DNA of 64,000 bases from Chrysophaeum taylorii (Eukaryota; Sar; Pelagophyceae; Pelagomonadales; Pelagomonadaceae), in assembly GCA_029834535.1 (NCBI GenBank), contig JAQMWT010000585.1, positions 1 through 64,000 on the forward strand, given 5' to 3'. Positions 11,459 through 49,909 of the stretch are shown piece after piece. The notes beneath the pieces were generated by a model. The model was not told the DNA's origin and searched no databases. It was given only the letters and a program-made list of their open reading frames with translations. The stretch's first letter is position 1; every line of letters starts with the position of its first letter. The translations under genes and the position numbers were made by a program.

Positions 11459-11764
11459 TGTGACGTAAGGGAAATGCACCACCTGGGCTCAATCTTCGAA
11501 TCTAGGCTCGCCGCTCACGTCCGCGCTCTTCGTCGAGTAGGACGAGGAAGCCGTTCGCTCGCCACACAACCACAAACAACGCCGTGCCTGGTCCCTCGAA
11601 AGATCGGCTTTGCTTTATGTTGATATATCAATCACGAAATCAGGGTGACACCATACGGAAAAGGAAGATGATGTCATAGAGAAAACTGACTTTATCAGAA
11701 CGGAGTAGGGTGCCCCTGATAAGGGGGAAAGGAGGGTAAGCCTAGGAGGAGGGTTTCCGCCACA
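11459..11764 (-). repeat. Gyp-A 3' LTR
   Basis: Begins TGTGACGTAAGGG (plus-strand sense), ends TTTCCGCCACA. It matches 21748-22158 except that it has a single copy of the 75-bp block duplicated there. Confidence 0.85.
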
Positions 11765-12512: not shown

Positions 12513-14039
12513 TCAGAGCGAGTCTGGCCAACATGCGGTATCGAAATCCATAGGTGTATAATCGGTCAACATCGGCTGGCTTTGGTTCAGGCGTAGCATA
12601 AAGGGAGAAATCTGCGTGCCTGGAATAAACTTGCGGTTGTAGCAAAACGCAATATAGTGGGCAAAGTCGGGCCAATCCGTGATGTTCCGGCCCTGAAGGC
12701 AGGCACGGAGGAAGGCCTTGATAAATCGGTTCACACGCTCAGCAGGGTTCGACTGGGCATGATAGGGGATCGTAGTTTGGTAGCGCGTGTTGAAGAGATG
12801 GCAAAACTCGCGCATCAACTTGTTCACGAACTCTGTACCGTTGTCAGTACGAACCATCTGGGGCTAGTAGCCCTTGAGGAGGATGTTAATGACAACAGAC
12901 TCGAGAATGGATTTAGCAGTCTTATCGTTCAAAACATCCATAATCAAGAAGCGCGAGAACGGATCGAAAAACACTAGAAGATACGTCTCGGGACCAGCGC
13001 TGGGCAAAGGTCCAAATATATCCATGCAGAGAACTGTGCTATCACCATCGTAGACAGGCTGTTGCAAGAGTCCAGCTCGTTTCGGCTCTGGCGTACGAGC
13101 TCTCTTGCAAACTAAACATTCAGCAAAGAAGACTCCGACTTCGTTCGACATGTGGGGCTACCAAAATCGTTCTTGGATAGCCTGGACAGTACTGTGACGT
13201 CCCATATGACCACCGTTAACCGGAGTGTCATGGTAGAGTCGAATAATGCGCTTGCGCAACGTGGCAGGGGCCACAATCATCGGGTGCAAATCAGCAGAAA
13301 TGCGGTAAAGAATGTCTTTCACAACTTCATATCGTTCGTTCGCTCGGTAACGTCGCGACGTATGACCTTGGGCCATCCGATAGCGAATATCCTCGCAAGT
13401 AGCATCAGATTCTTGCTCACGCGCGATCTCATCGAGCGTCATATTATCGGGAGTTTTATCAATATAATCCTTGTGCGCGGCTGCGTCCTTGAAGACCTGC
13501 GGCTCATCGCGCACGCGGTTCTTCCGACGTTGTCTCGTAGCGTGAGACGTAGCCAGTCTCATCGGATCTTTTTCGGGAGCTTCTTCCTCGTCTTCCGGCA
13601 GTTCGGTCGTGACAAACGACAATATGAAGTGACAGCCGGAGGCAGGAATTCCTTGGTCATCAATAGTTCGGGGAAGCTCTTGGAACACCAAATAAGCGTG
13701 GTTCAAAGGTTCTCCAAACTCGTCAGTCTCGATGACATGATCTATCGGATTGCGGGAGAGACAGTCAGGGATACTCATTCCCGGTGACTTTCCCGGCTTG
13801 TAACCAAGTTCAGGGTCAAAGTTGGCGAGGCGCATCGCCCAACGAGCAAGCTGTCCAGACGAGTGCGTCGCCTTACGTAAAAACGTCAAATTTCGGTGAT
13901 CGGTCTCCAAAACAGTCCGGTGCCCTTCAATATAGGCTCGAAAGTGCTCTAGAGGAAGGACAACAGCCAGCAGCTCCAGCCGACGGGGCTCATAATTGCG
14001 CATCTCCTTCGGCACGGCTCGGCTCCAGTATTCAGTCAT
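12513..14039 (-). pseudogene. Gyp-A RNase H and integrase, two in-frame stops
   Basis: Read on the minus strand: the end of RNase H (ETDHRNLTFLRKATHS, IPDCLSRNP), an H2C2 zinc module (YHDTPVNGGHMGR ... ECLVCKRA), then the integrase core with LCMDIFGP, VRTDNGTEF and NPAERVNRF supplying D, D, E. Stops interrupt it at about 13152 (TGG to TAG just before PHMSNEV) and about 12860. All catalytic acids are present, so only the stops disable it. The intact counterpart is Gyp-B 22469-24175. Confidence 0.85.
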
Positions 14040-15345
14040 TCGTTTTCTCGAGTCACTCTTCCTGCCTTGTCCTTGACTTCGACAATCTGGAAGAGATATG
14101 CTCCAAGTCCATCGTTGGAAGCGTCGGATCGGATCTGAAAGGGCAGACCATAATCGGGGTGGTAGACTCCTCTGGAATCAACCAAAGTTTCAATAATCGT
14201 ATCCCAAGCCCTTTGACACTCGAGCGTCCACTCGAACTTTACGCCTTCGAGACATAATCGTCTCAGCGGTTCCACGATCTTCGAGTAGCTCTTCACATAT
14301 CGCCGGCAGTAATTGCTCATGCCGATGAGAGAGCGTATCTGGGTCTTCGGGGAAGTATTTGGCAAAGTACCTGGAATCGGCATCTTCTGCAGAGCCTCCA
14401 GCGTCTTCGGATTCGGCTTCAAGCCTTCGGGGTCGAAATATGTCCCAGAAATTCTATCTCATCCTTGAGAAGGTGGAACTTTGCGGTTCGACCACTGTAC
14501 CCTCTCCGTGCCAAATGACACATAACTTCGATCAAAACTTTTAAATGTCGATGAAGATTGTCGGATCCCATCATAATATCGTGAACAAACGCAACCAAGT
14601 CTCGATACATCCATTTCGAAAGGTCGTTCACCATCTGCCTGCAGAAAAGAGCACCGGCCGTCTTCACACCCAGAGGTAGTCGCAAGAAACTATGGGCGCC
14701 AAGTGGGCTAACCATCGTGACTGCGTCTTGCGCTGCCGGATCCAGACGAAGGTTGTGGTATCCCCATCTAATATCAATGCATGTCCGCCAGCGTCGCATG
14801 GCGAGAAAAGCTAAAGCATCGTCTTGTCGAATGTTCGGCCAACTGTCATTGGCCAATTGATCGTCGAGCTGACGTAAGTCAACTGCAGCACGGAACGCGT
14901 TTTACGTTCCAATCTCAGCTCCTTTCTTGGGGTGCATCAACATAGGAAAGCCCCAAGGTGAGTTGGCCGGGCGAATGACTCCATCCCGACACCACTCACT
15001 GATCTGCTTGCGGAGACAATCGAGCTTCGCAGGCGTCAGTCGGTAGGGCGCCATCTTAATCGGTCGCGGATTCGCGTCTTTGAATCGTAGAGATACAGGA
15101 GGCGAGTCCACAGGTCTCATAATCGGGTCGAAAAAGGCCCAAGAATATTGCACACAGTGACGGAGCATCAGCTTCGCCTCGTCATCTAAGTGCGGATTGT
15201 CAGGAATTCCAAGCTCCTGAACAACCTTGTCAACTTCTTCCTTCGTAGGAATCTTCACTTTCATAACGGGGCTATCCTTGACATGCTCGGGAGTTTGCGG
15301 CAGCGGTGCACCATCAGCATCGCGCGGCGCATCTTTCCATGGCAC
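14036..15345 (-). pseudogene. Gyp-A reverse transcriptase, active site FVDD changed to FVHD
   Basis: Frames 14902-15345, 14419-14856 and 14036-14422 together give a gypsy RT: KMAPYRLTPAKLDCL, WGFPMLMHPKKGAE, IDIRWGYHNLRL, LPLGVKTAGALFCRQM and then AFVHDIMMG. The catalytic motif should be (Y/F)xDD; Gyp-B and Gyp-C read FVDD at this place. Here GAC became CAC (near 14590), replacing an essential metal-binding Asp. A frame change or stop lies near 14860-14900. RT polymerises the cDNA, so this copy cannot replicate itself. Confidence 0.85.
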
Positions 15346-15370
15346 ATCGAACTTTTCTCATATTTTAGCC

Positions 15371-17092
15371 TCACTTCCGGGTGGCTTTTGTTGATCTTCT
15401 CGCCTTTGACACGAACGCTCGGCTCGCTCTTAATCTTCGGTTCCTGATCTCGCTGGCGGAACGTCCAAATTTGGTTGTCGGGGCAGCAGAAGAAGCATGA
15501 GACGTCCCCGGCTCATCTGTTGCAGGCGGAAGCAAAGGCACCTCTGGAGGTTTCCATCTGGTGCGATCTTGGAGATAATCAGTCGACACCCATCTTACGA
15601 CACGTGTGCGCGTGTTTAACAGAGGAACTTGTACGTGACGAAGGGTGGTTTCGTCGATTTGCAAATAATAATCAAACGGTCGGTCTGCAGGACTCAACGC
15701 GGACGGCAAAGCCTCGCCGCTCAAGCGAAAATCCTTGGTCACAGAGTTGTGCAGATCGAGTACCAATAAAGCCATCGTGTCTGGTGGCACGACGGACGCC
15801 AAGTGTTTCAACGAGGTCGTCCTGGAGAAGCCGGCCCAATCAAAATCAAGGGGCATCGTCAGCAACTCCGAAGTCATTTTTAGATTCAGAGATCTGCAAT
15901 CGGAACGGTGCGGTCCTACGCGAAGTGGGACACGCGTAACGGTATAAGCTGCGTCTGTCGCGGCTCGTGATGATCCCAAATTGTTCATCTGAAGTAAATG
16001 CCGTTCGTCCGCGTAGCCAAGCGCAGCGGCGAACTCTGGTTATATATTCTTGCAAGTCTTGGGAACTGCGCGTAAATGCAGCGTATGGCTGGAAACCAAC
16101 AACCGCACGCGACAGCTCATCATACTGGGCGTTGTGTCGTAAAAATTGACGACGTACACCTAGGGGTGTAAACGCGCAACGTAAGAAATAATCGAGGCCT
16201 CCTGCTCTATCAACCACACGAAGAAACCAGCCATCTTGCATAATTTCATCGTCCAGTGGGTGGCGGTGACTCCCTTCCCAACATCTCTGGAAGTCAAGTT
16301 GCACAGAGCGGAGTGGACGCAGGGTGGCGACGCGATACACATCGACGACGACCATTCCGCGTAAGGTAAATAAGATTCGATCAACCGTAAGGTTGTAACA
16401 TAGCGACCACAAAGCGTGTGCAGCACCACAAGAATGTTCGGAAAATTCTTGCGGCGGATCTTGTTGGCGGTGTCCGACGCATCGAGTGCTAGCACGACTC
16501 AAAACGACGTCCCACACATTTCGTTGGCTCGTTGGAGACCTAAAGTGCTGCCTCCGGCTCCACTGAACAGCATCACCACCTTGCGATAAGTGATCGGAAG
16601 CCATTGAACCTTTTCGTATCGGCGGCGGATCTCCGCTTCGGTGATCTCGCGGCACTTCTTTTCATCTTCTTCAGACCGTCGAGCGAAATCGTCGTCTCGC
16701 TTGGGTCGTTTGGGGGAGGACTCGTCCACAGCAGCGGCTGTAGCGTCCTTCTGCGCCGTGCTCAGCAACATCGGCGGGGGAGATTCGTCGCAGCGCGTCA
16801 AGTGACTAGCGACGGAAACGGCGAAAGGAAGGTTCCCCTTGTCGTATCCTTCTTCACATTCTTTCGCAAGCTCGTTGATCGTAGAAACGCTCAACTCATC
16901 TTCGTACCGAACGATGTCGCCAATTGCGAGAACCTCGCCTTGAGTGACGACCGTCGGTACTTCTTGCGTGGAAGTAACAGCCACGCGGGCAGATGACTTG
17001 TCGTGCTCTTCGCAAGAAGAACACATCCCTTCGACAACTCCCAGCTGCTCGTTTTCAGCAAACGTAGCGACGAAGACCTGTCCTATTTCCAT
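15371..17092 (-). pseudogene. Gyp-A cytosine-5 DNA methyltransferase, three nonsense mutations in one frame
   Basis: One minus-strand frame runs through motif I (LFSGAGGSTLGLQRANE, 16500-16570), motif IV with the nucleophile (CIASPPCVHSAL), a short motif VI (VYVVNFYD), motif VIII (CRVRLLVSSH) and motif X (SLKHLASVVPPDTMALLVLD). The enzyme would transfer a methyl group from AdoMet to cytosine C5. Three stops break it: CGA to TGA after motif I (16499), TAC to TAG before motif VI, CAA to TAA in the target-recognition region. The first is a C-to-T change in a CpG. The N-terminal 145 residues are acidic and unassigned. After motif X a Pro-rich linker leads to RT. The catalytic Cys is intact. Confidence 0.85.
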
Positions 17093-17278
17093 AGGCTTGA
17101 CAAAATAACCGGCAAATTACAAGTCCGACCGGGCTCGATTTGTAGCGTGCGCGCAGCGTAAGCGACAACTTCCTGCGCGGCTTCTCCCGGAGCTGGGGAG
17201 AGTTTGGTCGTAGAATGTCCCCGCGTCGTCAAGGCTACCGCTCGTTCTGGCGGCGGGCTGCGGATATCTTTAATCGAG

Positions 17279-18424
17279 CTAAGACGAGCGTAACCTCGTC
17301 TTGACCAGGTCGAGACTCTGCTTAAAAGCGTCGTGCTGGTGATTGTAAATCAGCACGGTTGTCGGGTCTCCATCGTAAACAGACCGAAAGGTCACAATGG
17401 GTGCATCGACTCGTTCACCCTTGACTTTAATCTTCTTGCGTCCGTATACGACTTGGGTTCGATAAAAACAGATCCGATCGTGGGGGTAGTCCACGACGGC
17501 TCCTAAAACTCGGATATCGCGCCCTCCCAACAGGAAAAGATAATTGGTGTCGGCCACAATAGCGACAATGGGGGCGGCGATGTCGTCGGCGAGAGCGACC
17601 CGGATCGCGATCCAACGATAGATCGTAGTCGTATTCAACCCCGATCCGTACAGCTTGCGCTTGATCGGAAGCTCGCCTTCATCGAAAATCAACTTATCAT
17701 TGGCCAAGTTTCTGACCATTTCGCGGCAAATAGAAGAAACATCTGCCATTCCATCGACACCGATTGTCGTCGAGAATTTCGGTCCGTCACGATTCCTGTA
17801 GATGTGACAGGCCATAAACGTAAGAGTACCCGTATCCAAACAACTGAGGGTAACCAAATCATCTTCGATAGTCTTGTCATCTCGCGGCGTTAACGAAGTG
17901 TGAGAACATTGGGCTCTGCCTCGCTCGTCGCCGGGGTTGGGCATCGACACCGCGGCTTGAGTTCTCGTATCATCTGTTGTCGGCGTCATCGACGCAGCGC
18001 TCGCGGCAGCCTCTTTATCTGGTGGCTTCCGCTCTTCCTCCGTGACAATCTCGGAGGGAATCAATGCTGGTAGGGGATCCCGGTCTTCGGCGTTCTCGGA
18101 AGCAAAGGACCTCTCCCATAACTCGTACATTTCGTCTTTCCAGAATGCATCCGTAGATTCATTCGTCATCGGTTGATCATCACAGTCGGTACCGATCGGT
18201 TCCATGTCGGCTGCGGCTTCGATTCCGTAGCTGAGCGGTCGTTCTGGTGGCTTCCTTAGCAAGAAGTTCCGAGTTCTCGTCCACCAATCCTGCAGGTTCC
18301 ACGTCGGCTCCTCTTCGTCCCAATCGAGAACGCTGCTAATCTTCTTCTTACATCCATCTTCTTCGGTCGGGTTCGGCTCGACTCCGGCAACGCCGTCACT
18401 GCTATCTTCTTCTGGCGGTGACAA
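17279..18424 (-). CDS. Gyp-A aspartic protease ORF (381 aa)
   Basis: The retroviral-type active site LDTGTLTF has D197-T-G199, and the C-terminal half holds the second hallmark LLGGRDIRVLGAVVDY (the ILG-D-F pattern of gypsy proteases). Residues 1-190 are acidic and low in complexity and carry no domain I recognise. The enzyme would cleave Gag-Pol. It lies between the RS ORF and the DNMT, in the Gypsy position. This is the best-preserved protease here: Gyp-B has DPG, and Gyp-C is split by an insertion. Confidence 0.8.
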   Translation of the reverse strand: MSPPEEDSSDGVAGVEPNPTEEDGCKKKISSVLDWDEEEPTWNLQDWWTRTRNFLLRKPPERPLSYGIEAAADMEPIGTDCDDQPMTNESTDAFWKDEMYELWERSFASENAEDRDPLPALIPSEIVTEEERKPPDKEAAASAASMTPTTDDTRTQAAVSMPNPGDERGRAQCSHTSLTPRDDKTIEDDLVTLSCLDTGTLTFMACHIYRNRDGPKFSTTIGVDGMADVSSICREMVRNLANDKLIFDEGELPIKRKLYGSGLNTTTIYRWIAIRVALADDIAAPIVAIVADTNYLFLLGGRDIRVLGAVVDYPHDRICFYRTQVVYGRKKIKVKGERVDAPIVTFRSVYDGDPTTVLIYNHQHDAFKQSLDLVKTRLRSS

Positions 18425-18665
18425 ACCCAGGCATTGCTCGATTGGATAAGCGTCCCTTTCATCTTTGGACCGTGCACGTAGCTTCTCGTCCGACGCATTA
18501 TGCGATTTCGTATCCTTTTCTTCCGGCGGTGTATCCGTGGCTCGATCCGTCGTAACTGAAATCGTTTCAGGGGGGGTCCGCAGGAAAAGATGGCGTCGTC
18601 CCCGACGTCAACTCTATCGTAAGATCGTCGTCTGCATCACTCGCGATGGTCATCGTCTCATCTGG

Positions 18666-19511
18666 TTAATGATCATCCGTGCTATCGCTGCAGAAACCCA
18701 TGTCTGGCTCACTGCCGGTCCGGTCGCCAAAGGTCATCTCGGGGGGATCCAAAGATAGGCCGATAGCGCCGAGGGCTTCCTCGTCAAAACCAAACGGTGG
18801 GTCGTCCTTGGACGACTCGTCAAGTAACGTAATCGAGGACACTGGTTCACAAGGCGCGGCTTCGTCGTCTTCCGAGTCCGAATCGCCTTCCCAGTATCGT
18901 GGAGCTTCGAGTTCATCGCTCGATTCGCCGGGTTCATCGCCCGACATTTCCTCGTAAATCCGTGTCAAAGACTGACGATCGGTCAGCACTTCGTTGGGTG
19001 GCTCGTCCGGCGGGGGGCGAGCACGATCTTCGAATGCGCCCGCGGCAAAGGCGTCGGCTGCGTCGTCGGAGCGGGTGTCCGTGTCCGGGTACATCATCAC
19101 TCCTAATGGTAACTGTTGACCGCAAGGGGTCGTAAACGCGAACGTGGCTGACGAATGTCCCGAATCTTCTCGGTAACGTCCACCATCCGAATCGCGGTCG
19201 CGAGATCTTCGTCGCCGGCGTCGGCGCGAATGTCTGCTAGGGCTCCGGCTTTCTTTCCGTCGGCGCGAACGTGAGCTGTGACTGCGGCTCTTGTCGCGGC
19301 GTCGGGGGCTCCGGCTGTCTCGACGGCCCGGTCGTGTCGAAGACGATCGGCCGTGTCCATCTTTCAAGTGCTTCACGGAATCCATGACCGTGGTCAGCTG
19401 CGTGCCCATGTCGTTGAGCCTGCTCTGAATATCATGAGCGGCGCTCGAACCGAGAGTGGCATTCGAACTGCCATCATCGCGCGACTGGGTATCCTTCTTC
19501 TGCTCTCCCAT
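18666..19511 (-). CDS. Gyp-A Arg/Ser-rich (RS) ORF (281 aa)
   Basis: Residues about 55-110 are dense in RS, SR and RRR runs (for example RDSRSPRRRDKSRSHSSRSR), followed by an acidic Ser/Asp/Glu-rich half. RS domains in host proteins bind splicing factors and RNA and act as nuclear localisation and phosphorylation regions. Here the gene sits between gag and protease. It could form a basic nucleocapsid tail of Gag, because it directly follows the Gag Cys-rich end. A related ORF is at 49478-49873 in Gyp-C, so it belongs to the family. Function is inferred only from composition. Confidence 0.65.
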   Translation of the reverse strand: MGEQKKDTQSRDDGSSNATLGSSAAHDIQSRLNDMGTQLTTVMDSVKHLKDGHGRSSSTRPGRRDSRSPRRRDKSRSHSSRSRRRKESRSPSRHSRRRRRRRSRDRDSDGGRYREDSGHSSATFAFTTPCGQQLPLGVMMYPDTDTRSDDAADAFAAGAFEDRARPPPDEPPNEVLTDRQSLTRIYEEMSGDEPGESSDELEAPRYWEGDSDSEDDEAAPCEPVSSITLLDESSKDDPPFGFDEEALGAIGLSLDPPEMTFGDRTGSEPDMGFCSDSTDDH

Positions 19512-19556
19512 CTGCCTCGAGAGGGAGGTTTCTTATCGTTTTCGATGTACTTGCAC

Positions 19557-19646
19557 TAACTAACTAACTAACTTCAGACCTCTCCCGAGCATGGGAGCCA
19601 AGCCGAGTCCGGAATCACGGGCCTGTAGACGAGGGGCATACCGAAA
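19557..19646 (-). mobile_element. SINE-like repeat S2 inside Gyp-A gag, with 13-bp target duplication
   Basis: Starts with four CTAA/TAAC units on the plus strand, then the family's 3' sequence (TTCAGACCTCTCCCGAGCAT). It is bracketed by GATGTACTTGCAC at 19544-19556 and again at 19647-19659, a perfect 13-bp duplication. The insertion supplies the last residues and stop of the gag frame. Without it, gag would read on past 19544. Confidence 0.85.
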
Positions 19647-21308
19647 GATGTACTTGCACATCGCCACATAATACTCATCGGGCCCGCGGTTGCAAATAAC
19701 GCGGCTCCCAGGTTCATCCTTGTCGTGGGTCGAGAGGAAAAACCCACAATTCTTGCATGTGAGCTCGTACCACTTTTTCGGAATCTCTTCTAATCGCAGC
19801 GATTCGAATTTCGTCTTCTTATCTTTCGGTCCCGTGGCTAGTGCTCGGCCTCCGCGTCCATGCGGCGGTTTCTGCGATTTCCCGTTCGACGGGTTCTTCG
19901 AGTTGCGGTCGTTCCGCTCTTCCAACGCGGTCGCGTAATCGTTCTCGAGCCGCGTAATCAGCGACAACGTCGACGTAAACGTGTCGTACGTAGTCGGGTG
20001 CCCGCTGCGCATGGTCCGCACGCGGGATCGTAAATCGCTGGACTCCAGCCCGCGTATCAAATAGGAAATAATCTCAACATCATTGAGGATTCGATCGGCC
20101 ACAGAGCAGTAGGCCATCGCCTCGCTCTGGAATTTGGTGCAATAAGTGTGCACATGGCGTTCCCCAGGTCTTTTCGGAACGGATGCCTGGATCGTACTCT
20201 GAAGTTTTCGTAGTAACTCCTCTGTCGTCATAGGCAAAGGGCAACTCGATCGGAAATATTTCAAAACCTTGATGCAGCACTCTCTGTTCAGTCGTCGCAG
20301 TCGTCGTACCACTGAACCGTACTCGTCATCGTCGACGTCCCGACGTAAATAAAAAGACGCCGGATGGTCGAGATCCTTGCACTCTTCTTTGTATTTCTTC
20401 AAGTGCTCTCGGAAAATCGGTGCGACCGTGTCGCGTAAGCTTACCGGCAGTAAATACCGCAGCTTTTCCATGCTGTAATGGTCGTCGGCCAGCGTGCTCA
20501 TCACGGCATCTGCATCTAAATCGAACTGGTCCTGGTCGCGACCATCAAGAACCAATTTAAACGTTTCAGTCTTCAATCCGGAGGTTGATCGCCGATCCTT
20601 ACTGCGATCATGCTTAGCTAACGCGCTGGCGAACCGGTCAGTGAAGTCCATGAGGAACTTCTGGTCGTTGACCTTCCCGTCGTCTCGCGTCTCCTCCTTA
20701 GTCTCGTAATCATCGTCGTCGTAGCGCGGTTTCCTAACTTTAGCGCGTGTTCGCGTAGGCGGCGGCTCTTCCTCGGGTCGGGACCCCGGACTGCTCGCTC
20801 GCCTCGAGCGACTCGTACGTAATTCGTCCCTCTCCCGGGTTAGTAGCCGTACTTGTTCGTGGAGTTCCTCCGTCAGAGCGTTTGCTTTCCGCAGTTGCTC
20901 TCGCATATCGTCCAGCTCCTTCTGGCGTAGCCGTTCAAGCCGCTTGTTTTCTTCTTCTATCTGCTGTAGAATGCTCTCTTGCGCGCGTTCGTTTTCTCGG
21001 CGTAACTCGCGTAGATGAGCCTCGAAAATCTCGTTCATGATCGGTGCTTCGGTGTTTCGTGCACGTGTCGACTGAGCTGTCGGTTGCCTCGCCTGCGGCG
21101 CTTCCAACTGTTCGTCGCCGTTGTAGTTCAGCTCTTCTTCATTGTCATCGTCTTCGGTAGCATGTTCATCATCATCATTATCATCAACATCGTCTTCATC
21201 ATCATCGTTCCGCTCGTTCGTCCCCTCGGGACGACTTGAAGGTTCAATTTCTCGTATCTGCTCGTCAGCAGCCTCATCGTCCTCCATGTCGGCTTCGGCT
21301 CGCTCCAA
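19560..21308 (-). CDS. Gyp-A gag (582 aa), 3' end altered by SINE
   Basis: The structural protein of the virus-like particle. Residues 1-75 are very acidic (long D/E runs), about 90-170 form a strong coiled coil (REELRRENERAQESIL-like heptads), about 180-210 are basic and Pro-rich, and the middle (220-480) is helical and capsid-like (YYSMEKLRYLLPVSLRDTV). A Cys-rich end at about 545 reads CKNCGFFLSTHD, then VICN. It is uninterrupted over its length, unlike Gyp-D gag. The last dozen residues come from the SINE S2. The start at 21308 is the first Met of the open frame; an earlier non-AUG start cannot be excluded. Confidence 0.8.
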   Translation of the reverse strand: MERAEADMEDDEAADEQIREIEPSSRPEGTNERNDDDEDDVDDNDDDEHATEDDDNEEELNYNGDEQLEAPQARQPTAQSTRARNTEAPIMNEIFEAHLRELRRENERAQESILQQIEEENKRLERLRQKELDDMREQLRKANALTEELHEQVRLLTRERDELRTSRSRRASSPGSRPEEEPPPTRTRAKVRKPRYDDDDYETKEETRDDGKVNDQKFLMDFTDRFASALAKHDRSKDRRSTSGLKTETFKLVLDGRDQDQFDLDADAVMSTLADDHYSMEKLRYLLPVSLRDTVAPIFREHLKKYKEECKDLDHPASFYLRRDVDDDEYGSVVRRLRRLNRECCIKVLKYFRSSCPLPMTTEELLRKLQSTIQASVPKRPGERHVHTYCTKFQSEAMAYCSVADRILNDVEIISYLIRGLESSDLRSRVRTMRSGHPTTYDTFTSTLSLITRLENDYATALEERNDRNSKNPSNGKSQKPPHGRGGRALATGPKDKKTKFESLRLEEIPKKWYELTCKNCGFFLSTHDKDEPGSRVICNRGPDEYYVAMCKYIFRYAPRLQARDSGLGLAPMLGRGLKLVS

Positions 21309-21747
21309 TCGGCCGAAGTCTGAACGGGTCCAAAGTGGTTGAGTCGTCGTCGTTTTCGTATCCTGCGACTCTGGGACTTCTACTCGTCCCCGTCACGCGT
21401 AATTCGTCGCCGGGTGCGTCTTGTACCGACTGATCTATCAGATACGGCGGGCGGCAGAATTCGTCTCTGCCCGGCAATCAATGACTCGGCGAGTTGCGAT
21501 CTCACTCCGCTCGCCTGCGGCAGCTGTACCCGGGTTGCGCGTCGGCTCGAACCGATCCGCGCGTCGTCACCTCCGACGACTAACGTATCCGGCCGGGGAT
21601 CTTTCCCACGGCGATGGTCCCTCTAGAACTCTTCGTCGGCGCGCTTGATCAGGGCGCGCACGGCTTGTCCGGACCGTGTAGAGAATGCAAGATGCACTCG
21701 TCCGCTGCGACCGATATGGTCGCTCGAATCTCATATCCTCCACCACC
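21309..21747 (-). other. Gyp-A 5' leader with primer-binding region
   Basis: About 440 bp between 5' LTR and gag start. Directly next to the LTR, minus-strand sense reads GGTGGTGGAGGATATGAGA; Gyp-C has AGTGGTGGAGGATCGGAAT at the same place. Conserved TGGTGGAGGAT at this position is what a tRNA primer site would look like. The matching tRNA is not identified. No separate gene is supported in this stretch. Confidence 0.5.
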
Positions 21748-22158
21748 TGTGGCGTCAGGGAAATTATGCCTACCTGGCTCACCTTCGAATCTAGGCTCGC
21801 CGCTCACGTCCGCGCTCTTGGTCGAGTCACTGGACGAGGAAGGCCGTTCGCTCGCCACACAACCACAAACAACTTCCGTGCCTGGTCCTCACAACTTGAG
21901 GATCGGCTGTTGCTTTATGATTAAGATACTCTCGAATCACAGAAATCAGGATGACGCGTGTCACGGAAAAGGAAGATGATGTCATAGAGAAAACTGACTT
22001 ATCAGAACGAATCACAGAAATCAGGGTGACACATGTCACGGAAAAGGAAGATGATGTCATAGAGAAAACTGACTTTATCAGAACGGAGTAGGGTGCCCCT
22101 GATAAGGGGGGGGGGTTCAAGGAGGGGTAAGCCTTAGGAGGCGGGAGTTTCCGCCACA
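21748..22158 (-). repeat. Gypsy LTR shared by Gyp-A (5') and Gyp-B (3')
   Basis: Begins TGTGGCGTCAGGG, ends TTTCCGCCACA, matching 11459-11764. It holds an extra direct duplication of 75-76 bp (21935-22009 and 22010-22085, both with GGAAGATGATGTCATAGAG), which explains its greater length. Gyp-A gag lies on one side and the Gyp-B tail directly abuts the other, so a single LTR serves both. Confidence 0.8.
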
Positions 22159-22731
22159 AGTGATACTGTTGTTGACCTTGGACTTGTCGGTGAAACTGCG
22201 ACCGTCCACGTCCTTGTATTTCGGCTTAAGCTTGCGAGTAGAGAGATGTGAGGTAGGCTTGTAGTAAGATACCTTGTCAAGGGGACCGAGATCGGCATAA
22301 AAATGCAGAGCGACTCGATCATTCACAAAATCATAGGGCTCATAAACTTCAGCCACGTAAATCTTCTTGCGCCAATCGGACCGTTTGCCCTCGGGGATCC
22401 GAAAGACAACGAACTTACCGTGCTTGAAATCGTCCCGGGAGGTCTCCTTGGGTTTAGGCACGGCTCGATCAACCACCGGAGAAACCATCACAGGTGATCT
22501 GACTGACATGAACACAGCGGCGTTCAGGAGGAGAATCAAGAGACTCAACCCTGTAAGTGACCGGAGACAAGCGTTCCACAATAATGAATGGACCGCGCCA
22601 TTCCGGTCGAAGCTTATTCTGAAGAAAAGGGATGTAGAGCAAAACATGCGATCCTTCTTCATATTCCACATCGACATGATCCGCATTGTAAGCGAGACGT
22701 TGTTTACGAAGAGCCTTCTCGCGAGCTTCAT
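22159..22731 (-). CDS. Gyp-B C-terminal barrel-like domain
   Basis: The frame (ORF 22117-22731, its end in the LTR) contains HGKFVVFRIPEGKRSDW, KKIYVAEVYEPYDF and RVALHFYADLGPLDK, nearly the same as Gyp-A. It overlaps the end of the integrase ORF in another frame, so either it was once fused by read-through or an indel separates it. Its position after integrase suggests a chromatin-targeting or DNA-binding role (inference). No catalytic residues are seen. Confidence 0.5.
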
Positions 22732-24175
22732 TGACCGTAGCGGTGTAGAATTTCAACCTCTCGCGAGTCTCTGCCACAACATCGGAGCGAGTTTTCGGCA
22801 GGCGGCGGACATCAAGATCCATGATCGTATAATCTGTCGGCAATAGAGGCTGCCGGTTGAGACGAAGCATGAAGGGTGAGATCTGAGTCCCCGGAATGAA
22901 CTTACGATTGTAGCAAAAAGCAATGTACTCCGCGAACTCGGGCCAGTCCGTGATCTTGCGGTCTTGAAGACATGCACGGAGGAAAGCCTTGATAAAGCGG
23001 TTGACCCTTTCCGCAGGATTAGCCTGAGCTTGATACGGAATCGTGGTACTATACCGAACATTGGAGAGATGACGAAACTCTTCCATCAATTTGTTGACGA
23101 ACTCTTTCCCGTTGTCGGTGCGAATCCTCTGAGGTAGATAACTTTTGAGTAATATATTCGCGACAAAAGACTCGAGGATCGACTCAGCAGTCTTATGGTG
23201 CAGTACGTCAAGAATCAAGAAATGAGAAAATGGATCAAAAAAGATGATCAGATACGTCTCGGGACCGGCACTAGGCAAAGGTCCGAACAAATCCATACAA
23301 AGAACGGCGCAATCACCATCATACACAGGTTGCTGAAGAAGACCTGCTCTCTTTGGTTCAGGCGTGCGAGCTTTCTTGCACACTATACAACCAGCAATAT
23401 AGGCACCCACCTCATTAGACATGTGAGGCCACCAAAAACGTCCAAGTATCGACTGCACTGTACTTTGACGACCCATGTGAACACCATTGAGAGGTGTGTC
23501 ATGGTGCAATCGGATGATGCGCGTCCGTAAAGTCCGAGGTGCGACTATCATCGGGTGCAAGTCGGGTGCGGCACCGTAGAGGACTCCTTTCACCACTTGA
23601 TAGCAATAATTGGCTCCGTACCGACGAAGAGAGTGGCCTTGAGCCATGCGATAACGCATGTCCTCGCAAGTAGCATCAGTGATCTGCTCTTTGGCTATCT
23701 CTTCCAAAGTCTCTTTGGCTATCACTTCCAAAGTCAAATTATCCGGAATCTTGTCGATGTACTCTTGGTGATCATCGGCATCACGGAAAATACTAGGTTG
23801 GGTCTGCAGACGTTTCTTCTGACGTTGTCTCGTAGCGTGAGACGTGGCCAATTGCATCGGATCGTCGCGACCATCTTCTTCTTCCTCCGCAGGCAACTCA
23901 GTCGTAACAAACGACAGAATGACATGGCACCCAGGTAAAGGTACTCCTTTATCATCAACAGGCCGAGGAAGTTCTTGGCACACTAAGTACGCGTGGTTCA
24001 AGGGTTCACCAAACTCATCCGTCTCGATGACATGATCGATAGGATTGCGAGAGAGACAGTCAGGGATACTCAATCCCGGCAACTTCTTTGGTTTGTAACC
24101 CAATTCAGGATTAAAATTGGCGAGCCGCATCGCCCATCGAGCCAACTGCCCAGACGAGTGCGTCGCCTTTCGCAA
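22469..24175 (-). CDS. Gyp-B RNase H end and integrase (568 aa), uninterrupted
   Basis: It begins in the last part of RNase H (SIPDCLSRNPIDHVIET). The zinc module is HHDTPLNGVHMGR followed by GCIVCKKA. The catalytic core shows LCMDLFGP, IRTDNGKEF and NPAERVNRF, giving the D-D-E triad with the usual spacing, then a GPY/F-like segment (LRPEWRGPFIIVERL). Integrase joins the cDNA ends to the chromosome and would leave the short target duplication. No stop occurs in the whole domain. A run of six A at about 24170 separates it from the preceding RNase H frame. Confidence 0.9.
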   Translation of the reverse strand: MRKATHSSGQLARWAMRLANFNPELGYKPKKLPGLSIPDCLSRNPIDHVIETDEFGEPLNHAYLVCQELPRPVDDKGVPLPGCHVILSFVTTELPAEEEEDGRDDPMQLATSHATRQRQKKRLQTQPSIFRDADDHQEYIDKIPDNLTLEVIAKETLEEIAKEQITDATCEDMRYRMAQGHSLRRYGANYCYQVVKGVLYGAAPDLHPMIVAPRTLRTRIIRLHHDTPLNGVHMGRQSTVQSILGRFWWPHMSNEVGAYIAGCIVCKKARTPEPKRAGLLQQPVYDGDCAVLCMDLFGPLPSAGPETYLIIFFDPFSHFLILDVLHHKTAESILESFVANILLKSYLPQRIRTDNGKEFVNKLMEEFRHLSNVRYSTTIPYQAQANPAERVNRFIKAFLRACLQDRKITDWPEFAEYIAFCYNRKFIPGTQISPFMLRLNRQPLLPTDYTIMDLDVRRLPKTRSDVVAETRERLKFYTATVNEAREKALRKQRLAYNADHVDVEYEEGSHVLLYIPFLQNKLRPEWRGPFIIVERLSPVTYRVESLDSPPERRCVHVSQITCDGFSGG

Positions 24176-25718
24176 AAAACGTCAAATTGCGATGATCCGT
24201 CTCAAGGATCGTCTTGTGACCTTCGATATAAGAGCGAAAATGCTCAAGAGAAAGTATAACTGCCAGTAGCTCTAGCCGGCGGGGCTCATAGTTCCGCATC
24301 TCTTTCGGCGCAGCCCGGCTCCAATACTCAATCACTCGTTCCTCTCGTGTCACCTTGCCGGTGTCGTCCTTGACTTCCACGAGCTGAAAAAGATACGCGC
24401 CCAGACCATCCTTGGAAGCATCCGGGCGGATCTGAAAAGGAAGATCGTAGTCAGAATGATAAACTCCGCGGGAGTCCACAAAACCTTCGATGATCGTGTC
24501 CCATGCCTTTTGGCACTCAGGCGTCCACTCAAACTTAACACCTTCAAGACACAATCGCCTCAGCGGCTCCACAATCTTCGAATAATTCTTCACATATCGG
24601 CGGCAGTAGTTGCTCTTGCGGATGAAGGATCGAATCCGAGTCTTCGGAGACGTGTTCGGCAGTGTACCGGGAATCGGCATCTGCTGCAACGCTTCTAACG
24701 TCTTTGGATTCGGCTTCAAGCCTTTCGGAGTCGAAATTTGTCCCAGAAACTCGATTTCACCTATGATGAGGTGGAACTTAGAAGTTCGTCCACTATATCC
24801 TCGCTGCACTGAATTGCACAGCACTTCAATCTAGACTTGTAGATGACGGTGGAGTTCCTCCGATCCCATCATAATATCGTCGACAAACGCGACCAAGTCC
24901 ATATACATCCATGTTGGCAGATCGCTAGCCATCTGCTTACAGAAGAGAGCTCCTGCTGTTTTCACTCCCAGAGGCAAGCGCAAGAAACTATGTGCTCCAA
25001 GTGGGCTAACCATCGTGACGGCGTCCTGTACGGCGGCGTCCAAACGCCGGTTGTGGTAACCCCATCGAATATCAATGCACGTCCGCCAACGGCGCATGGC
25101 AAGAAAAGCCAACGCATCATCTTGACGAATATTCGGCCAAGTGTCATTGACCAGCTGATCGTTGAGCTGACGCAAGTCAACTGCAGCACGAAAAGCATTC
25201 GACGTTCCGACCTCTGCTCCCTTATTAGGCAGCAATAGTACAGGAAATCCCCACGGAAAATTCGCCGGTCAGATGATTTCATCGCGACACCACTCGGTGA
25301 TCTGCTTTCTGAGACACTCAAGCTTTGCTGGCGTCAACCTGTAAGGTGTCATCTTAATCGGTCGTGGGTTTGCGTCTTTAAATCGTAGAGAAACCGGCGG
25401 CGAGTCCACGGGTCTCATAATCGGGTCAAAAAAGGCCCACGCGTATTGCACGCAGTGGCTTAACATCATCTTCGCATCCTCATCCAGATGCGGGTTGTCG
25501 GGGATTCCCAGTTCTCGAACAACCTTCTCGACTTCTGCTTTCGTCGGAGTTTCGACTTTCATCGCCTGATTTTCCTTGACGTGCTCCGGAGTCTTGCGGT
25601 AACGGTGCACCGTCCGCGTCGCGCGGCGCATCCTCCCATGGCACATGGAACTTTTCTTCGTATTTGAACCTCGCCTCAGGGTGGCTCTTATTGATCTTTT
25701 CACCTTTGACGCGCACAT
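24111..25718 (-). pseudogene. Gyp-B reverse transcriptase and RNase H, frame-broken, FVDD intact
   Basis: Three frames (25269-25718, 24831-25235, 24111-24824) cover the domain: PIKMTPYRLTPAKLECL, IDIRWGYHNRRLDAAV, LPLGVKTAGALFCKQM, AFVDDIMMGS, then EIEFLGQISTPKGLK and the RNase H part (IRPDASKDGLGAYLF, PRRLELLAVI, LETDHRNLTF). The catalytic Asp pair is kept. Breaks lie at about 25240-25270, 24828 and the A6 run at 24170; each could be a single indel or stop. An upstream Pro-rich linker joins it to the DNMT. Confidence 0.85.
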
Positions 25719-25779
25719 TCGGTTCGCTCCTTACTTTCGGCTCCTGGTCAGGTTCAGGATCCGGCGGAACGTCCACTTT

Positions 25780-27340
25780 TTATTGTCGGGGGGAGGCAGC
25801 AGAAGAGGCATGAGCCGTCCCCGGCGCATCTGTTGGAAGCGGAAGCACAGGTACTTCTGGCGGTTTCCATTTGGTGGGATCCTGGAGATCATCTTCTGAC
25901 ACCCACTTAACGACACGAATACGCGTATTCAACTGCGGCACCTGTACGTGACGAAGGGTGGTGTCGGCAATTCGCAAATACTGCTCAGAGGATCGATCTG
26001 TCGGGCGCAACGCGGTCGGCAGGACGTCGCCACTTTGGCGGAAACCTCTGGTCACGGAGTTGTGCAGATCGACTGCTAAAATCGCAAGAGTGTATGGAGG
26101 GACGACAGACGCTAGGTGCTTGATCGAATATGTCTTAGACAGGCCAGCCCAATCATGGTCCATCGGCATCGTGAGCAACTCTGCCGTCATCTTGAGAGTC
26201 AAAGGCTGAGTGTCCGAGCGGTGCGGTCCCAAGCGAAGAGGAACTCGCGTAACGGTGCTAGCCGTATCTGTTGCGTCTCGAGACGAGCCTAGATTATTCA
26301 GCTGGAGCAGGTGGCGTTCATCTGCGCAACCTAATGCTGCAGCGAATTTCTGTTGCATGTTCGCACATGTCTTCTGAGCCTCTTGCAGGTGCAGTGGGTG
26401 ACTAGAGACCAACAACCGCACGCGAGATCTCATCAAAAGTGGGCGTGATGTCGTGAAAATTCTCGACGTACACGTAAGGGTATAAGCTCGCTATATAAGA
26501 AATAATGGACGCCACCTGTTCAATCAGCCACATCATGAAGCCAGCCATTTTGCACAGCTTCATCGTCCAATTAGTGGCCGTAGCTCCCCTGCCAACATCT
26601 CTGGACGTCAAGTTGCAGAGTGCTGAATGAACGCAGGGCGGAGACGCGACACACATCGACGATGACCATTCCGATTCAGGCAAATAAGCCTTGATCAATC
26701 GGAGGGTCGTCTCATACCGTCCGCAGAACGTGTGCTGAACCACAGGTATCTTCGGAAAATTCTTCTGATGAATCTTGTTGGCAGCTGCTGAAGAGTCAAG
26801 AGCAAGGACGACTCGAAACGACGTCCAGCACAACTCATTCGCTCGTTGCAGCCCTAAAGTACTGCCTCCGGCGCCGCTGAATAGCATCACAACCTTGCGA
26901 TACGTGATCGTCAGCCATTGGACCTTTTCAAATCCTCGGCGAATCTCGCCTTTTGTAGCCTCTCGGCACTTCATTTCCTCCTCGTCGGTTCGTCGGTCGA
27001 AAGCGTCGTTACCGAGCGATTCTTGAAGAGAGTTCCTATCCTTATCGGCAGAAGGAGCCGCCTTCTGCACCGAGCTCAAAAGCATCGGTTCGGGAACCGC
27101 GTCGCCTTGAGTCAGATGGCTTGCGACCGAAACAGTCAACGATAGATTGGCCTTGTCATATTCGGCTCCACAGTCCTTCGTTAATTCGTCGACCGTCGCA
27201 ACGTTCAGCTCGTCATCAAAACACACAATATCGCCCAAAGCGAGAACTTCGCCTTGAGTAATCACAGTCGGCACATCCTGGGTAGAGGAGATCGCCACTC
27301 GAGCGGCGAACTTGTCGTGATCTTCGGGAGAAGAACACAT
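25780..27340 (-). pseudogene. Gyp-B cytosine-5 DNA methyltransferase, one 1-bp insertion
   Basis: The frame 27340-26402 (312 aa) has motif I LFSGAGGSTLGLQRANE (residues 153-169), motif IV ASPPCVHSAL with catalytic Cys236 (codon 26633-26635) and a motif VI-like YVENF (ENF 293-295). The second frame 26436-25780 continues with motif VIII SRVRLLVSSHP and motif X SIKHLASVVPPYTLAILAVD. Gyp-A and Gyp-C read straight through this point, and Gyp-B has an extra T in a T4 run near 26425, so one indel separates the halves. There are no stops. Residues 1-145 (GEVLALGDIVCFDDE...) match no domain I know. Motif VI to VIII spacing is unusually short. An AdoMet-dependent cytosine methyltransferase is the only reasonable family. 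Confidence 0.9.
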
Positions 27341-28456
27341 TCCATCGAATACCCCAAGTTGCTCGTATCAGAGGATGTAGCAACGAAAACCTGCCCGGTT
27401 TCCATGGGCTCTGAAAGAGTGACTGGCACGCACGCGTGTAAGTGCGCCCAGGCTCGACCTTCATCGTGCGCGCGGTATAGGCTACCACTTCATGGGCATC
27501 GCTGTTCGAGCATTGAGAAGGCGTATCTGTCGGGACTCCCCAAGTCGTCGAAGCCGCCGCTCGTTTTGGCGGTGGACGCTGGAGGTCTTCAATCTTGCAC
27601 AAGCGAGCGTAAACGCGGTCCTCGACCGTGCTCAGGCTCTTCTGCATCGCATGGTGCTGTTGCCCGTATACTTGAACTACCACGGGGTTGCGCTCATCAT
27701 AAGTTGATCTGAACGTCAAAACCGGAGAATCGACTCGTCGATCCTGCACCCTTAACTTCTTGCGCCCATAGGCGACTTGTGTGTGGAGAAACGCAATGCG
27801 ACTTCGCGGGTAGTCCACTATGGCTCCCAGCACCCGAATATCGCGCGCTCCCAGCAGAAATAAATGATTAGTATCGGCCATAATGGCAACCACTGGGACT
27901 GCCACGTCGTCCGCGAGCGCAATTCGCAATGCGACCCATTTGTGGATAGTCGTCTTATTCAATCCCGACCCGTACAGGGTGCGCTCGACTGGGAGATCGC
28001 CTCGGTCGAGGATTGTATTATCCTTCGCCAGTTTGTCGACCATCCCACGACAAATATAGGAGAGACATCCGCCATTCCACCAACGCCTAAAGTCGTTGCG
28101 AACTTCGGCCCGTCTCGTCGTCTGCAAATATGTCCAACTATGAACGTAAGTGTGCCAGGGTCCGGACAACCGATGGTGATGAGGTCTTGCTCGATCTTTT
28201 CCCCGTCGCGCGGCGAAAGGGCAGTATGATGGCATGTCCCTCCGGATTCGCGTCGCCCGGCATCTGCATCGTCACCGCTGCCATCTCGGGCGTCCCGCGT
28301 CTCGCCTCTGAACCTACATTGGCGTCCGCCGCACTCTCTTTGTCTGGTGGCTCTCTTTTTCCATCGCGACCTCGGGTGGGCTCGGTGCCTCGGCTGCTTC
28401 CTCATTCCCAAGTTTCGCTGGCAACAAATTCTGACAATTCTCAATCGGAGGCACAT
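27216..28456 (-). pseudogene. Gyp-B protease, active site DTG replaced by DPG
   Basis: The ORF at 27959-28456 has GCPDPGTLTFIVGHICRR where Gyp-A has SCLDTGTLTFMACHIYR, so the catalytic triplet is DPG. After a frame change near 28060 the rest continues in 27216-28235 with ADTNHLFLLGARDIRVLGAI. It probably cannot process polyproteins. The frame then runs on to the DNMT N-terminus. Confidence 0.75.
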
Positions 28457-30241: not shown

Positions 30242-30437
30242 TAGAGAACAGTAATTTCAACTGTGTTACCCTTCAGCAGAGCGTGGGAACAGTGGTAGTC
30301 TGTCCTCTAATCTGCCTCCTAAACGAGGACAGCCGGTGTGAATAACACAGCGTTTTCTTAAATCAAAAGGTGGCAAAGTTAAGGGGACTAACCCTAGAAT
30401 AGGGGGTACTAACCCTAATTCAGATTCCCTATCTCTA
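30242..30437 (-). repeat. Cop-1 3' LTR
   Basis: Aligned base by base with 39474-39669; about ten differences in 196 positions. Bases just outside it on the element side (GCCCTCACAGATTGAACTCGG, plus sense) match the same place in Cop-2, so this is the polypurine-tract region (GAGGGCG in element sense). Confidence 0.92.
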
Positions 30438-30479
30438 CGCCCTCACAGATTGAACTCGGTGAGCGAAATCTGGATCAAA

Positions 30480-31024
30480 CTAAGCACGAAGCGTCTTACC
30501 ATCGACAAGAACACAGAGAGTGTTCTGGACAGAGTCGTACGGTGGAAGAGTAGCTGAAAGAGTAAGCTGATGAGATGGTGGTGAGGAGGAGGTTGAGTGA
30601 ACACCGTAGGCGTTTTTGAACTTGCGAAATAAATTGCGTGGTAGGAGCTTCGAAAAATGATCAGCGACCTGGTAGTGAGTAGGACACCAGAGAGGTCTAA
30701 TGATCGAATTAGCTTGGTAGTCACGAATGCGAAATTCTCGTAAATTGATATGACGAGAAGGAGCACTGACTTTAGGGTGATTAGCGACATGTAATGCGCT
30801 AGCGTGATCAATAAGCAGGGGAATAGCGTGAGCTTGATCACACGAACACAGATAAGGGTGAGAGGAGAAAGGCCTGTAAAACCAGTGACATTCATCGGCG
30901 GCTGCGCTGGCGGCGATGAGTTCAGCTTCCAAGGTGCTTTTGGCCGTAAGATTTTGTCGTTTGTGCTAGACCAAAATACGAGACTGCCAAAGACGAAGAT
31001 ACATGCACCAGAGTTGGATCGCAA
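30480..31024 (-). CDS. Cop-1 RNase H
   Basis: Reads NVT-type copia RNase H: KILRPKAPWKLN in one frame and EAELIAASAAADECHW in the overlapping frame 30480-30932, then LLIDHASALHVANHP, RHINLREFRIRDY and VADHFSKLLPRN. The E, D, H and D positions of copia RNase H are visible. It degrades the RNA strand during reverse transcription. Break between RT and RNase H near 30940-31110, where a 35-bp tandem duplication also lies. Confidence 0.8.
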
Positions 31025-31110
31025 GCGAGGGTCGTAACGATCAGCAAAACTTGCATCAGTAAAACAAATAATGGGTGAACGAAGGTGATGCAGTTCGGGA
31101 TAGCAGTTGA

Positions 31111-32290
31111 TCAGATGCTGAATAAAGGGGGTAGTAGAGGGGCTGTCGGATGCAGAATAAAGGGGGTAATAGAGGGGCTGTCGGATGAATAGTCGAGTGA
31201 ATCATTCGGAGTACCCTTTAAGTAGCGAAGTAAAACATATAAGTGCAGAAGGTGGGTCTGATCAGGGTTGTGCATGCCCTTGCAGCATTTGTTGCACAAA
31301 GTGGTGATATCAGGCCGACATGTGACAGATAAGTAAATACTAGTGCCACAGTAGTGAGGAAAATTGTGGCGTAATACGTCTAAGGTAGGAGCCAAGTCTG
31401 AGAGAAGTTTAGCAGAAGGTTTTTGAATGAGGATGTCCGAATAGGGGACGTCCATACTATGTAGGTTGAGCTTATGCTCAGCAAGCATCTTGGTGATCTT
31501 CGCTGCTACATTCATAGTGAGATGACCAGCGGAGACATTGTAGTGGACATCGACACCAAGAGAGGATCTGATGTTGTCATGCCATGTACCTTTGCCATAT
31601 CCCTTCTCCATAGCAGTGCGAAGAGATGTAATTTTGGCAGTGTTGGTACCAGTGATCAATAGGTCATCGACTGAAACGGATAGTAGAACCCTTTTGTTGA
31701 TAGATCGATCCCAATTGATATAGAGGCAAGTGTCGACTTGTGAGCGGTCGAACTCATGTTGTCGAAGAAACGAGTCGAGTTTGATGTTCCACAACAAAGC
31801 TGACTGTTTGAGGCCATATAGAGCCTTGACGAGTCGGAGAGCGAGCTTCGACTCTGGATGGTTCTTCTGTATCTGCAGGATAAGATTTTGCGAGACACGT
31901 ATTCCTCGAGGGAAGTCGATCATACTGGGCGATCGAGTGCCGATTGGATGAATGCCTGAGGAGTGTCCGCGTGCGCGACCGGGTGCTTGTGCTTCACAGC
32001 GATGGCGAGCAGTAGCCGGTTGCTGGCGAGCATTGCGGTTGGGGAGGATGTGGCTTAAAAGTCAATGCCTACACGTGCCAAGAAACCTCGGGCGGCTATA
32101 CGAGCCTTATGGCGGTCTGGAGTGCCGTCAGCAAAATACTCAATCTTCAGCACGAGTTTCGTAGAGATAGACGACCGGTCTGGCGTTAAAGGTTCAAGTT
32201 TAATGACACCGCTGGAGGATAAGCCTTCAATTTCTTTACGAATCGAAGCAATGTGCTTTAGCTTATCTTCTTCGCCGAGTCCTTTGAGTT
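31111..32290 (-). pseudogene. Cop-1 reverse transcriptase, interrupted
   Basis: Upstream part (about 31930-32290, minus sense) reads KARIAARGFLARVGIDF then a stop, and LLLAIAVKHKHPVAHAD, the typical copia start of RT. The main ORF 31111-31923 has LVKALYGLKQSALLWN, then SVDDLLITGTN, the copia (Y/V)VDD catalytic motif, and RPDITTLCNKCCKG, YLKGTPNDSL at the end. At least two stops or frame changes lie between the pieces. Confidence 0.85.
31116..31186. repeat. 35-bp tandem duplication in Cop-1
   Basis: Two adjacent copies of a unit beginning GATGC.GAATAAAGGGGGTA and ending GGGCTGTCG, with two mismatches. It lies between RT and RNase H and is too long for slippage of a simple microsatellite. Confidence 0.8.
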
Positions 32291-36530: not shown

Positions 36531-36536
36531 TCGTTT

Positions 36537-37106: not shown

Positions 37107-37157
37107 AAAGAAAATCTGCGACTCTAGGTGAGATGGTTGATGATGTCGGGAAATTCG

Positions 37158-39313: not shown

Positions 39314-39473
39314 CTCTTTTTGATGCCTTGCTTATAAGCGAGCTTATTGTTCTCGCATCTCCTTTTGGAGTTCTTGATTGGCAGGCATTTTGCTTGGGTT
39401 CAGGAACGTCAGTGAGCGGGACTCGTCTGGTAATCCTGAGGCTTTGCTGATACCGGGACTGGTGCCCAATACA

Positions 39474-49873: not shown

Positions 49874-49909
49874 CTGAAGGTCGTGAGCGGATTCCGATCC
49901 TCCACCACT

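Follow-up and report, generated by a model that had tools for sequence, protein, structure and literature searches.

Do long terminal repeat (LTR) retrotransposons of the pelagophyte alga Chrysophaeum taylorii carry a DNA cytosine-5 methyltransferase (C5-MTase) as a gene of their own, and what could it do for them? The question is raised by the first 64,000 nucleotides of contig JAQMWT010000585.1 (C585; this whole stretch is the window), where the original prediction had placed a DNA methyltransferase (DNMT) between protease and reverse transcriptase (RT) in each of three Ty3/Gypsy copies, Gyp-A, Gyp-B and Gyp-C. All three copies lie on the minus strand, and the order protease-like segment, C5-MTase domain, RT is the same in each (spans 15,455–17,839, 25,789–28,162 and 41,502–43,850), the protease being assigned by eye. 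A comparison with the genome assembly (70.8 Mb, 697 contigs), from which relatives and host genes were fetched as L-numbered loci, partly confirms this observation, which is real and broader than stated: a Ty1/Copia family also carries such a domain. The accompanying interpretation is partly supported, the Gypsy enzyme being less canonical than claimed. Homology to C5-MTases extends over motifs I to IV in the Gypsy domain and I to VIII in the Copia domain; the position is fixed, the copy number high, the domains are under purifying selection, and fusion to RT in one frame occurs.

The methyltransferase-like domain of the Gypsy family

In L010, a relative whose domain is unbroken, the frame that follows the gag-like one consists of a protease-like segment, a linker and the DNMT domain, and the Pfam domains RVT_1, RT_RNaseH and H2C2 come after it together in a different frame. 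The protease-like segment, with DTG and a VADT...LLGGRDIRVLGAIVDF stretch, was assigned by eye, and Pfam names no protease. The DNMT domain is likewise unbroken in L009. The order of RT, ribonuclease H (RNase H) and integrase, the terminal LTRs and the rve match in a window copy place the family in Ty3/Gypsy. A separate RS open reading frame (ORF), which had been described next to the DNMT, dissolves on inspection: the RS-rich stretch sits in frame at the gag position.

A search with the DNA methylase profile had been proposed as a check, and its outcome is divided. PF00145 (curated cut-off 22 bits) recognises the frames of relatives whose domain is unbroken, L009 included, with 23.6 and 26.1 bits, and the domain alone with 28.6 bits (L010) and 25.9 bits (L011), the matches in Gypsy relatives spanning model positions 2–52 only; the window's own piece, ORF 26,402–27,367 (minus strand), remains slightly below the cut-off (E 5.4e-4, 19.9 bits). 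With the NCBIfam model dcm, L010 reaches 20.3 bits, far below that model's cut-off of 100.65, and L037, another copy with an unbroken domain, has no match. A custom profile built from 11 C5-MTases (nine from phages or plasmids, plus a host DNMT2-like and a host DNMT5-like protein) finds the Gypsy domain in two copies (20.5 and 17.5 bits; E 5.6e-6 and 4.6e-5). The Gypsy gag, protease/linker and pol gave no match with it, nor was any of 200 shuffled sequences reported. The host DNMT2-like gene lies at L017:4322–5401 (360 amino acids; class by eye), and the DNMT5-like gene at L018:3968–9499 combines a C5-MTase and an SNF2 domain in one frame. Profile–profile comparison (hhalign) with the 11 enzymes gives a probability of 92.8 and E 4e-7 over about 78 columns, from motif I to the PPC of motif IV; the reverse search, with the Gypsy profile against the 11 enzymes, yields nothing below E 0.097. 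Assignment of the Gypsy domain to a DNMT class was abandoned, about 78 aligned columns being too few for a class tree. Motif I, LFSGAGG, is present in 18 of the 19 copies that cover it (23 aligned), as anticipated. SPPC stands in 19 of 21 covering copies, the exceptions being Gyp-C (SPPR) and one copy out of frame there; the predicted nucleophile is thus found in both Gyp-A and Gyp-B.

The domain is not peculiar to this contig. Searching the genome with it yields 116 scored matches among 1,068 candidates, 79–100% identical, 92 of them stop-free by hand count; the corresponding RT search yields 101 scored matches among 1,293 candidates. In at least 13 Gypsy copies the DNMT and RT matches list an equal open-frame length, the longest being 3,063 and 3,067 codons. 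Contig pairs C10/C297 and C25/C521 show near-identical positions and equal scores, as if duplicates (haplotypes), so that these counts include some double counting. By hand count, 49 of the 101 RT matches have no listed DNMT partner. The reading that about half of the family is without a DNMT was nevertheless dropped, because, of 20 such RT copies that were fetched, 19 contain a frame-broken or truncated portion of the domain (its end only in L034); the remaining copy, L029, is cut off inside RT and has no domain. Carrying the domain is therefore the norm in this family.

Constraint was estimated as the ratio of nonsynonymous to synonymous divergence (dN/dS; Nei-Gojobori, median over pairs with dS > 0.15), with sufficient coverage in 20 of 27 copies for the N-terminal half of the DNMT, 23 for its C-terminal half, 26 each for RT and RNase H, 16 for the protease and 17 for the linker, where the row of L011 mixes pieces of two neighbouring elements. 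The medians are 0.073 and 0.146 for the two DNMT halves, 0.032 for RT, 0.050 for RNase H, 0.177 for the protease and 0.209 for the linker; all are rough, with dS above 1 between subfamilies. Ratios are higher for within-subfamily pairs that include decayed copies (0.35–0.36 in the DNMT for Gyp-B and L037). Evolution of the Gypsy domain is clearly not neutral, and constraint on it exceeds that on the adjoining protease and linker. The original prediction, which preferred a family gene to a chance insertion, is supported: the domain is fixed in the family and maintained by selection.

A second domain, in a nested Copia element

The stretch to which attention had been drawn, 15,371–27,340, omits Gyp-C and, nested in the pol of Gyp-C, an element with another DNMT-like domain. 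RVT_2 in L014 and in the window identifies it as Ty1/Copia, as do the LTRs of 197 bp (30,242–30,438 and 39,474–39,670; 95% alike) and the TCAT that flanks the window copy on either side. L014 has a frame of 1,952 codons with PF00145 (E 1.1e-7) and RVT_2 (E 1.6e-38), and L015 likewise combines PF00145 (E 5e-7) with RVT_2. An rve match precedes RVT_2 in L014 (residues 1016–1110; E 0.006, 17.2 bits, below the cut-off of 32.6), and none is listed for L015. The protease-like segment upstream of the domain was assigned by eye.

PF00145 matches the Copia domain alone in three copies with E 5.8e-9, 1.7e-9 and 4.1e-12, and Copia copies exceed its cut-off. The 11-enzyme profile reaches E 2.2e-11 on it (best of 200 shuffles 0.7 bits) and gives elsewhere in the frame a non-significant 3.9-bit match (E 0.66, residues 1–299). 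The hhalign comparison with the 11 enzymes (probability 97, E 1.2e-10) runs from motif I to motif VIII, with PCQ and ENV aligned; LPCQ is present in 8 of 8 aligned copies and ENV in 7, the eighth having ENA. This domain, absent from the original prediction, is better preserved than the Gypsy one. The genome holds 152 matches to it, some of which are pieces of one copy; three fall in contig C585, two making up the window copy and the third, a degraded copy with 62% identity and five stops, lying past the window end (C585:69,538–70,203). Along the DNMT, dN/dS is 0.116, 0.095 and 0.16, with 0.13 in the protease, 0.14 in the integrase and 0.28 in RT (five copies only). Here too the domain evolves under purifying selection.

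Comparison of the Gypsy and Copia domains reveals no similarity, a result compatible with either separate captures or extreme divergence. For the Copia domain, too, assignment to a DNMT class was abandoned: its best score is with a bacterial Dcm-type enzyme, and no match to host DNMT2 or DNMT5 is listed. Neither domain found a relative among about 5.8 billion database proteins (Copia at E ≤ 0.01; Gypsy at E ≤ 0.001 and at E ≤ 1), a blank that is weak evidence of absence, since a candidate must share 5-residue words with the query and be of similar length, and at most 8,000 candidates are scored. A scan of viral contigs with the Gypsy alignment also gave no relative.

Possible function, competing explanations and known systems

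We lean towards the view that these two LTR families carry C5-MTase-derived domains as selected parts of their polyproteins, and that the domains act on the element's own complementary DNA (cDNA) or RNA. The proposed orders are gag, protease, DNMT, RT, RNase H, integrase in the Gypsy family and protease, DNMT, integrase, RT in the Copia family. Because it lies downstream of the protease-like segment in both, the domain would be synthesised along with Pol, after which the protease would probably cut it free and it would be packaged alongside RT; as part of Pol it should remain near newly made cDNA. In the replication particle it would bind S-adenosylmethionine (SAM) and nucleic acid and act on the cDNA or RNA of the element, and the new copy could then reach the host nucleus already marked or protected. 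A similar argument, of a Pol-borne DNMT packaged close to new cDNA, appears for DIRS elements in the available passages of de Mendoza et al. (2018, PMC5890265). As PCQ and ENV are kept, cytosine methylation by the Copia domain is plausible. In the Gypsy domain the cysteine and the SAM motif are kept and the ENV glutamate was not found, so that its activity on cytosine may be altered or lost.

Several observations weigh against this view. The unbroken Gypsy copy L037 scores 20.7 bits with PF00145, under the cut-off. Downstream of SPPC, hhalign finds nothing significant in the Gypsy domain, so that motifs I to IV only are recognised, and a structure prediction for an unbroken window piece (174 amino acids, no alignment) reached a confidence (pLDDT) of only 38.8, too low to be of use. 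At the place read as motif VI, the 23 Gypsy copies have VVNF (20), VDNF (1) and VENF (1, Gyp-B of the window only), one being out of frame, and ENV occurs in neither of the two copies scanned for it. In the Copia domain the loop of motif I is shortened to IIAGG in all six rows that cover it (of 8), leaving FxGxG incomplete. Nor do base statistics help. The observed/expected ratio of CpG in the window is 1.17–1.32 for the Gypsy copies and 1.01 for the Copia element; two host-gene loci have 1.32 and 1.44. Pairwise C/T differences, which are affected by coding constraint, amount to 0.049 (CG), 0.035 (CA), 0.033 (CC) and 0.059 (CT) among Gypsy copies and to 0.133, 0.072, 0.102 and 0.140, in the same order, in 10 Copia alignments. 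Since CG is raised over CA and CC and not over CT, the copies bear no clear mark of CG methylation over the long term; methylation in other contexts, or transient marks, are possible.

The reading of VNF/ENF as motif VI in the original prediction finds no support in the profiles, whose alignments cover motifs I to IV only. The glutamate of Gyp-B is most simply a private change, because its near relative L037 (dS 0.16–0.34) has V at this place, as do Gyp-C, L011 and L038. VVNF lies only about 12 residues ahead of RVR; in M.HhaI about 44 residues separate E119 from R163. The segment may thus lack a strand–helix unit, or VVNF may be the counterpart of the strand that precedes motif VIII. The naming of RVRLL as motif VIII and of VVPP as motif X is likewise by eye, the best hhalign placement of the second half being the IX–X region at a non-significant E 0.24. 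With profile support confined to motifs I to IV and no canonical ENV found, catalysis by the Gypsy domain is uncertain.

The same features feed an explanation that we regard as possible, if doubtful: the Gypsy domain could be a selected pseudo-enzyme in which the scaffold binding SAM and DNA is kept and methylation lost, and which serves Pol as a nucleic-acid-binding or targeting module, for example in cDNA handling or the choice of integration site. Of 23 copies, 22 lack the motif VI glutamate (one being out of frame at this place), selection is strong nonetheless across subfamilies with dS above 1, and neither profile matches beyond SPPC nor clear CpG decay are seen. However, nearly all covering copies retain SPPC and LFSGAGG, which binding alone would not require, and PCQ and mostly ENV are retained in the Copia domain. 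As a tentative proposal, falling short of even chances, two unrelated LTR superfamilies captured a C5-MTase independently at the same point of the polyprotein, and the Gypsy one has since become a glutamate-less module with a new function. A double capture downstream of the protease would suggest strong host selection for elements that mark or shield their own nucleic acid.

It is rather unlikely that the domains methylate RNA (the element's mRNA or its tRNA primer) and not DNA. Searches of solved structures with the Gypsy domain give nothing significant; the nearest methyltransferase is DNMT2, which acts on tRNA (E 0.19–0.21, and in a second search E 0.32–0.35, with chance GGA1 matches ranked above), and this resemblance, covering motif I only, is countered by the Copia domain, which scores best with Dcm-type enzymes and does not match the host DNMT2-like protein. 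An RNA target would agree with the lack of a clear CpG footprint; the idea has been raised for SymbioLINE-Dnmt (PMC5890265), and orchid Gypsy elements carry an RNA demethylase (PMC9289625). That the profile matches are a chance resemblance of some other Rossmann-like segment is highly improbable: the Gypsy match is short (about 95 residues) with modest bits and the protein database gave no relative, yet motif I and PPC occur in the correct order and spacing, at the hhalign E-value given above, and neither the other parts of the Gypsy polyprotein nor the shuffles match. The idea that the domain is a neutral hitchhiker, copied passively since its capture as a fragment, could appeal to the many broken copies, all three in the window included, but is contradicted already by the low Gypsy dN/dS and the predominance of stop-free matches and can practically be set aside.

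Retrotransposon capture of DNMTs, which the original prediction mentioned for a charophyte alga and for dinoflagellates, is described for Klebsormidium and Symbiodinium in the available passages of de Mendoza et al. (2018, PMC5890265), on which the following comparison draws. KnitGypsy-Dnmt3 of Klebsormidium nitens has its DNMT inside the Gypsy Pol ORF, is multi-copy and is under purifying selection (Ka/Ks < 0.2), like the present family. Its enzyme is related to DNMT3, with key residues conserved, and its repeats are DIRS-like, whereas the elements described here have ordinary terminal LTRs, a domain without ENV and no assigned DNMT class. The suggestion of a new arrangement holds only in part, a DNMT in Gypsy Pol being already published; the placement between protease-like segment and RT is itself supported. 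SymbioDIRS-Dnmt3 methylated CG de novo in yeast, and the KnitGypsy and SymbioLINE DNMTs gave inconclusive negatives. As in Symbiodinium, more than one class of retrotransposon carries DNMTs in one genome, there in hundreds of copies; the classes are DIRS and LINE there and Gypsy and Copia here, and the Symbiodinium LTR Copia elements are stated to be without any DNMT domain, in contrast to the present genome.

A 2025 paper (PMC12344493) contains, in its available passages, the single phrase 'LTR Copia', citing the 2018 work, whose LTR case is Gypsy, and describes no Copia element there. The orchid Ty3/Gypsy elements, to judge from the available text (PMC9289625), also carry a fixed extra enzyme of nucleic-acid methylation, active in vitro; it is an AlkB demethylase of N6-methyladenosine (m6A) encoded in an additional ORF and acting on RNA, not a C5-MTase. 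The literature searched (open-licence only, and so not proof of absence) describes neither a DNMT-carrying Copia element nor two kinds of LTR element with DNMTs in one genome, one nested in the other. Retrotransposon DNMTs, including the Gypsy-borne one of Klebsormidium, are known (PMC5890265). The stronger novelty is the second DNMT-bearing superfamily, Copia; if its DNMTs are confirmed, the trait reaches a further major LTR superfamily. Cytosine methylation usually targets transposons, and elements that carry the enzyme invert this relation. They can be used to ask whether methylation of their own cDNA aids escape from the host or self-restraint, and two captures in one genome, one canonical in its catalytic residues and one lacking the motif VI glutamate, form a natural comparison of whether catalysis or the binding of SAM and nucleic acid is under selection.

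Layout of the window and neighbouring repeats

The features of the window are collected in the table. Gyp-A and Gyp-B stand head-to-tail and seem to have one LTR in common. The domain of Gyp-A contains three internal stop codons, and that of Gyp-B is broken by a single frame change near 26,435–26,457, in agreement with the single indel foreseen. A fourth copy, Gyp-D, had been credited with the first part of the DNMT; it is a gag-only copy, and no DNMT match (L010 query, E ≤ 1e-3) occurs between 43.9 and 64 kb. Outside the three copies this query finds a single further fragment, at 10,264–10,425 on the plus strand.

Table. Coordinates of Gypsy, Copia and DNMT-related features in the window
Feature	Position	Strand	Basis or remark
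Isolated DNMT fragment (motif I, same type) within degraded sequence	10264..10425	+	tblastn 45%, E 4e-8
Gyp-A 3' LTR	11459..11764	-	84-88% to 5' copy
Gyp-A pol: RT, RNase H, zinc-binding part of integrase	12966..15531	-	tblastn; domains as in query relative
Gyp-A protease-like segment and DNMT frame	15455..17839	-	tblastn 82% to P0002 residues 1-799
Gyp-A DNMT-like domain, from motif I up to the C terminus	15593..16645	-	91% identity to L010 domain (query 1-351)
Gyp-A gag-like region with RS-rich stretch	17843..21164	-	by position; relative without Pfam match
LTR region: Gyp-A 5' LTR, apparently also Gyp-B 3' LTR	21748..22158	-	sharing inferred
Gyp-B RT, RNase H (ORF 24,111-24,830), integrase (ORF 22,469-24,181)	22469..25844	-	Pfam, tblastn
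Gyp-B DNMT-like domain; SPPC present, private ENF	25876..26959	-	Pfam and own-genome comparison
Gyp-B protease-like segment and linker, with frame changes	27390..28162	-	tblastn
Nested Ty1/Copia element inside Gyp-C pol	30242..39670	-	LTRs and TCAT flanks
Copia polyprotein, frame-broken	31414..37263	-	pieces 71-90% identical to L014 1,952-aa frame; RVT_2
Copia-borne DNMT-like domain	35696..36353	-	own-genome matches; profile match; relatives keep LPCQ and mostly ENV
Gyp-C RT and RNase H, split by the Copia insertion, resuming at 30,170-30,241	39669..41557	-	tblastn
Gyp-C DNMT-like domain with broken frame and altered catalytic Cys (SPPR)	41621..42672	-	tblastn, alignment
Gyp-D, gag-like part only	48457..49900	-	tblastn

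Other repeats surround these elements. Two sequences 89% alike, at 5,828–6,156 and 11,024–11,327, bracket about 5 kb of the plus strand that hold the isolated motif I fragment, and this stretch is perhaps a degraded relative with LTRs of its own. Another pair, 91% alike (52,971–53,161 and 61,780–61,964), bounds about 9 kb on the plus strand; three long frames in it (452, 398 and 627 amino acids) have no Pfam match, and it is possibly a further LTR element. A repeat of about 100–120 bp occurs in both orientations at 4,154, 40,574, 52,834, 53,581 and 60,725, once within the RT region of Gyp-C, and looks like a small non-autonomous element. In the host background, as expected of a photosynthetic eukaryote, 80 matches to the chlorophyll-binding family PF00504 were counted in the genome, against 0 in 14 control genomes; many of them share identical scores and are clustered.

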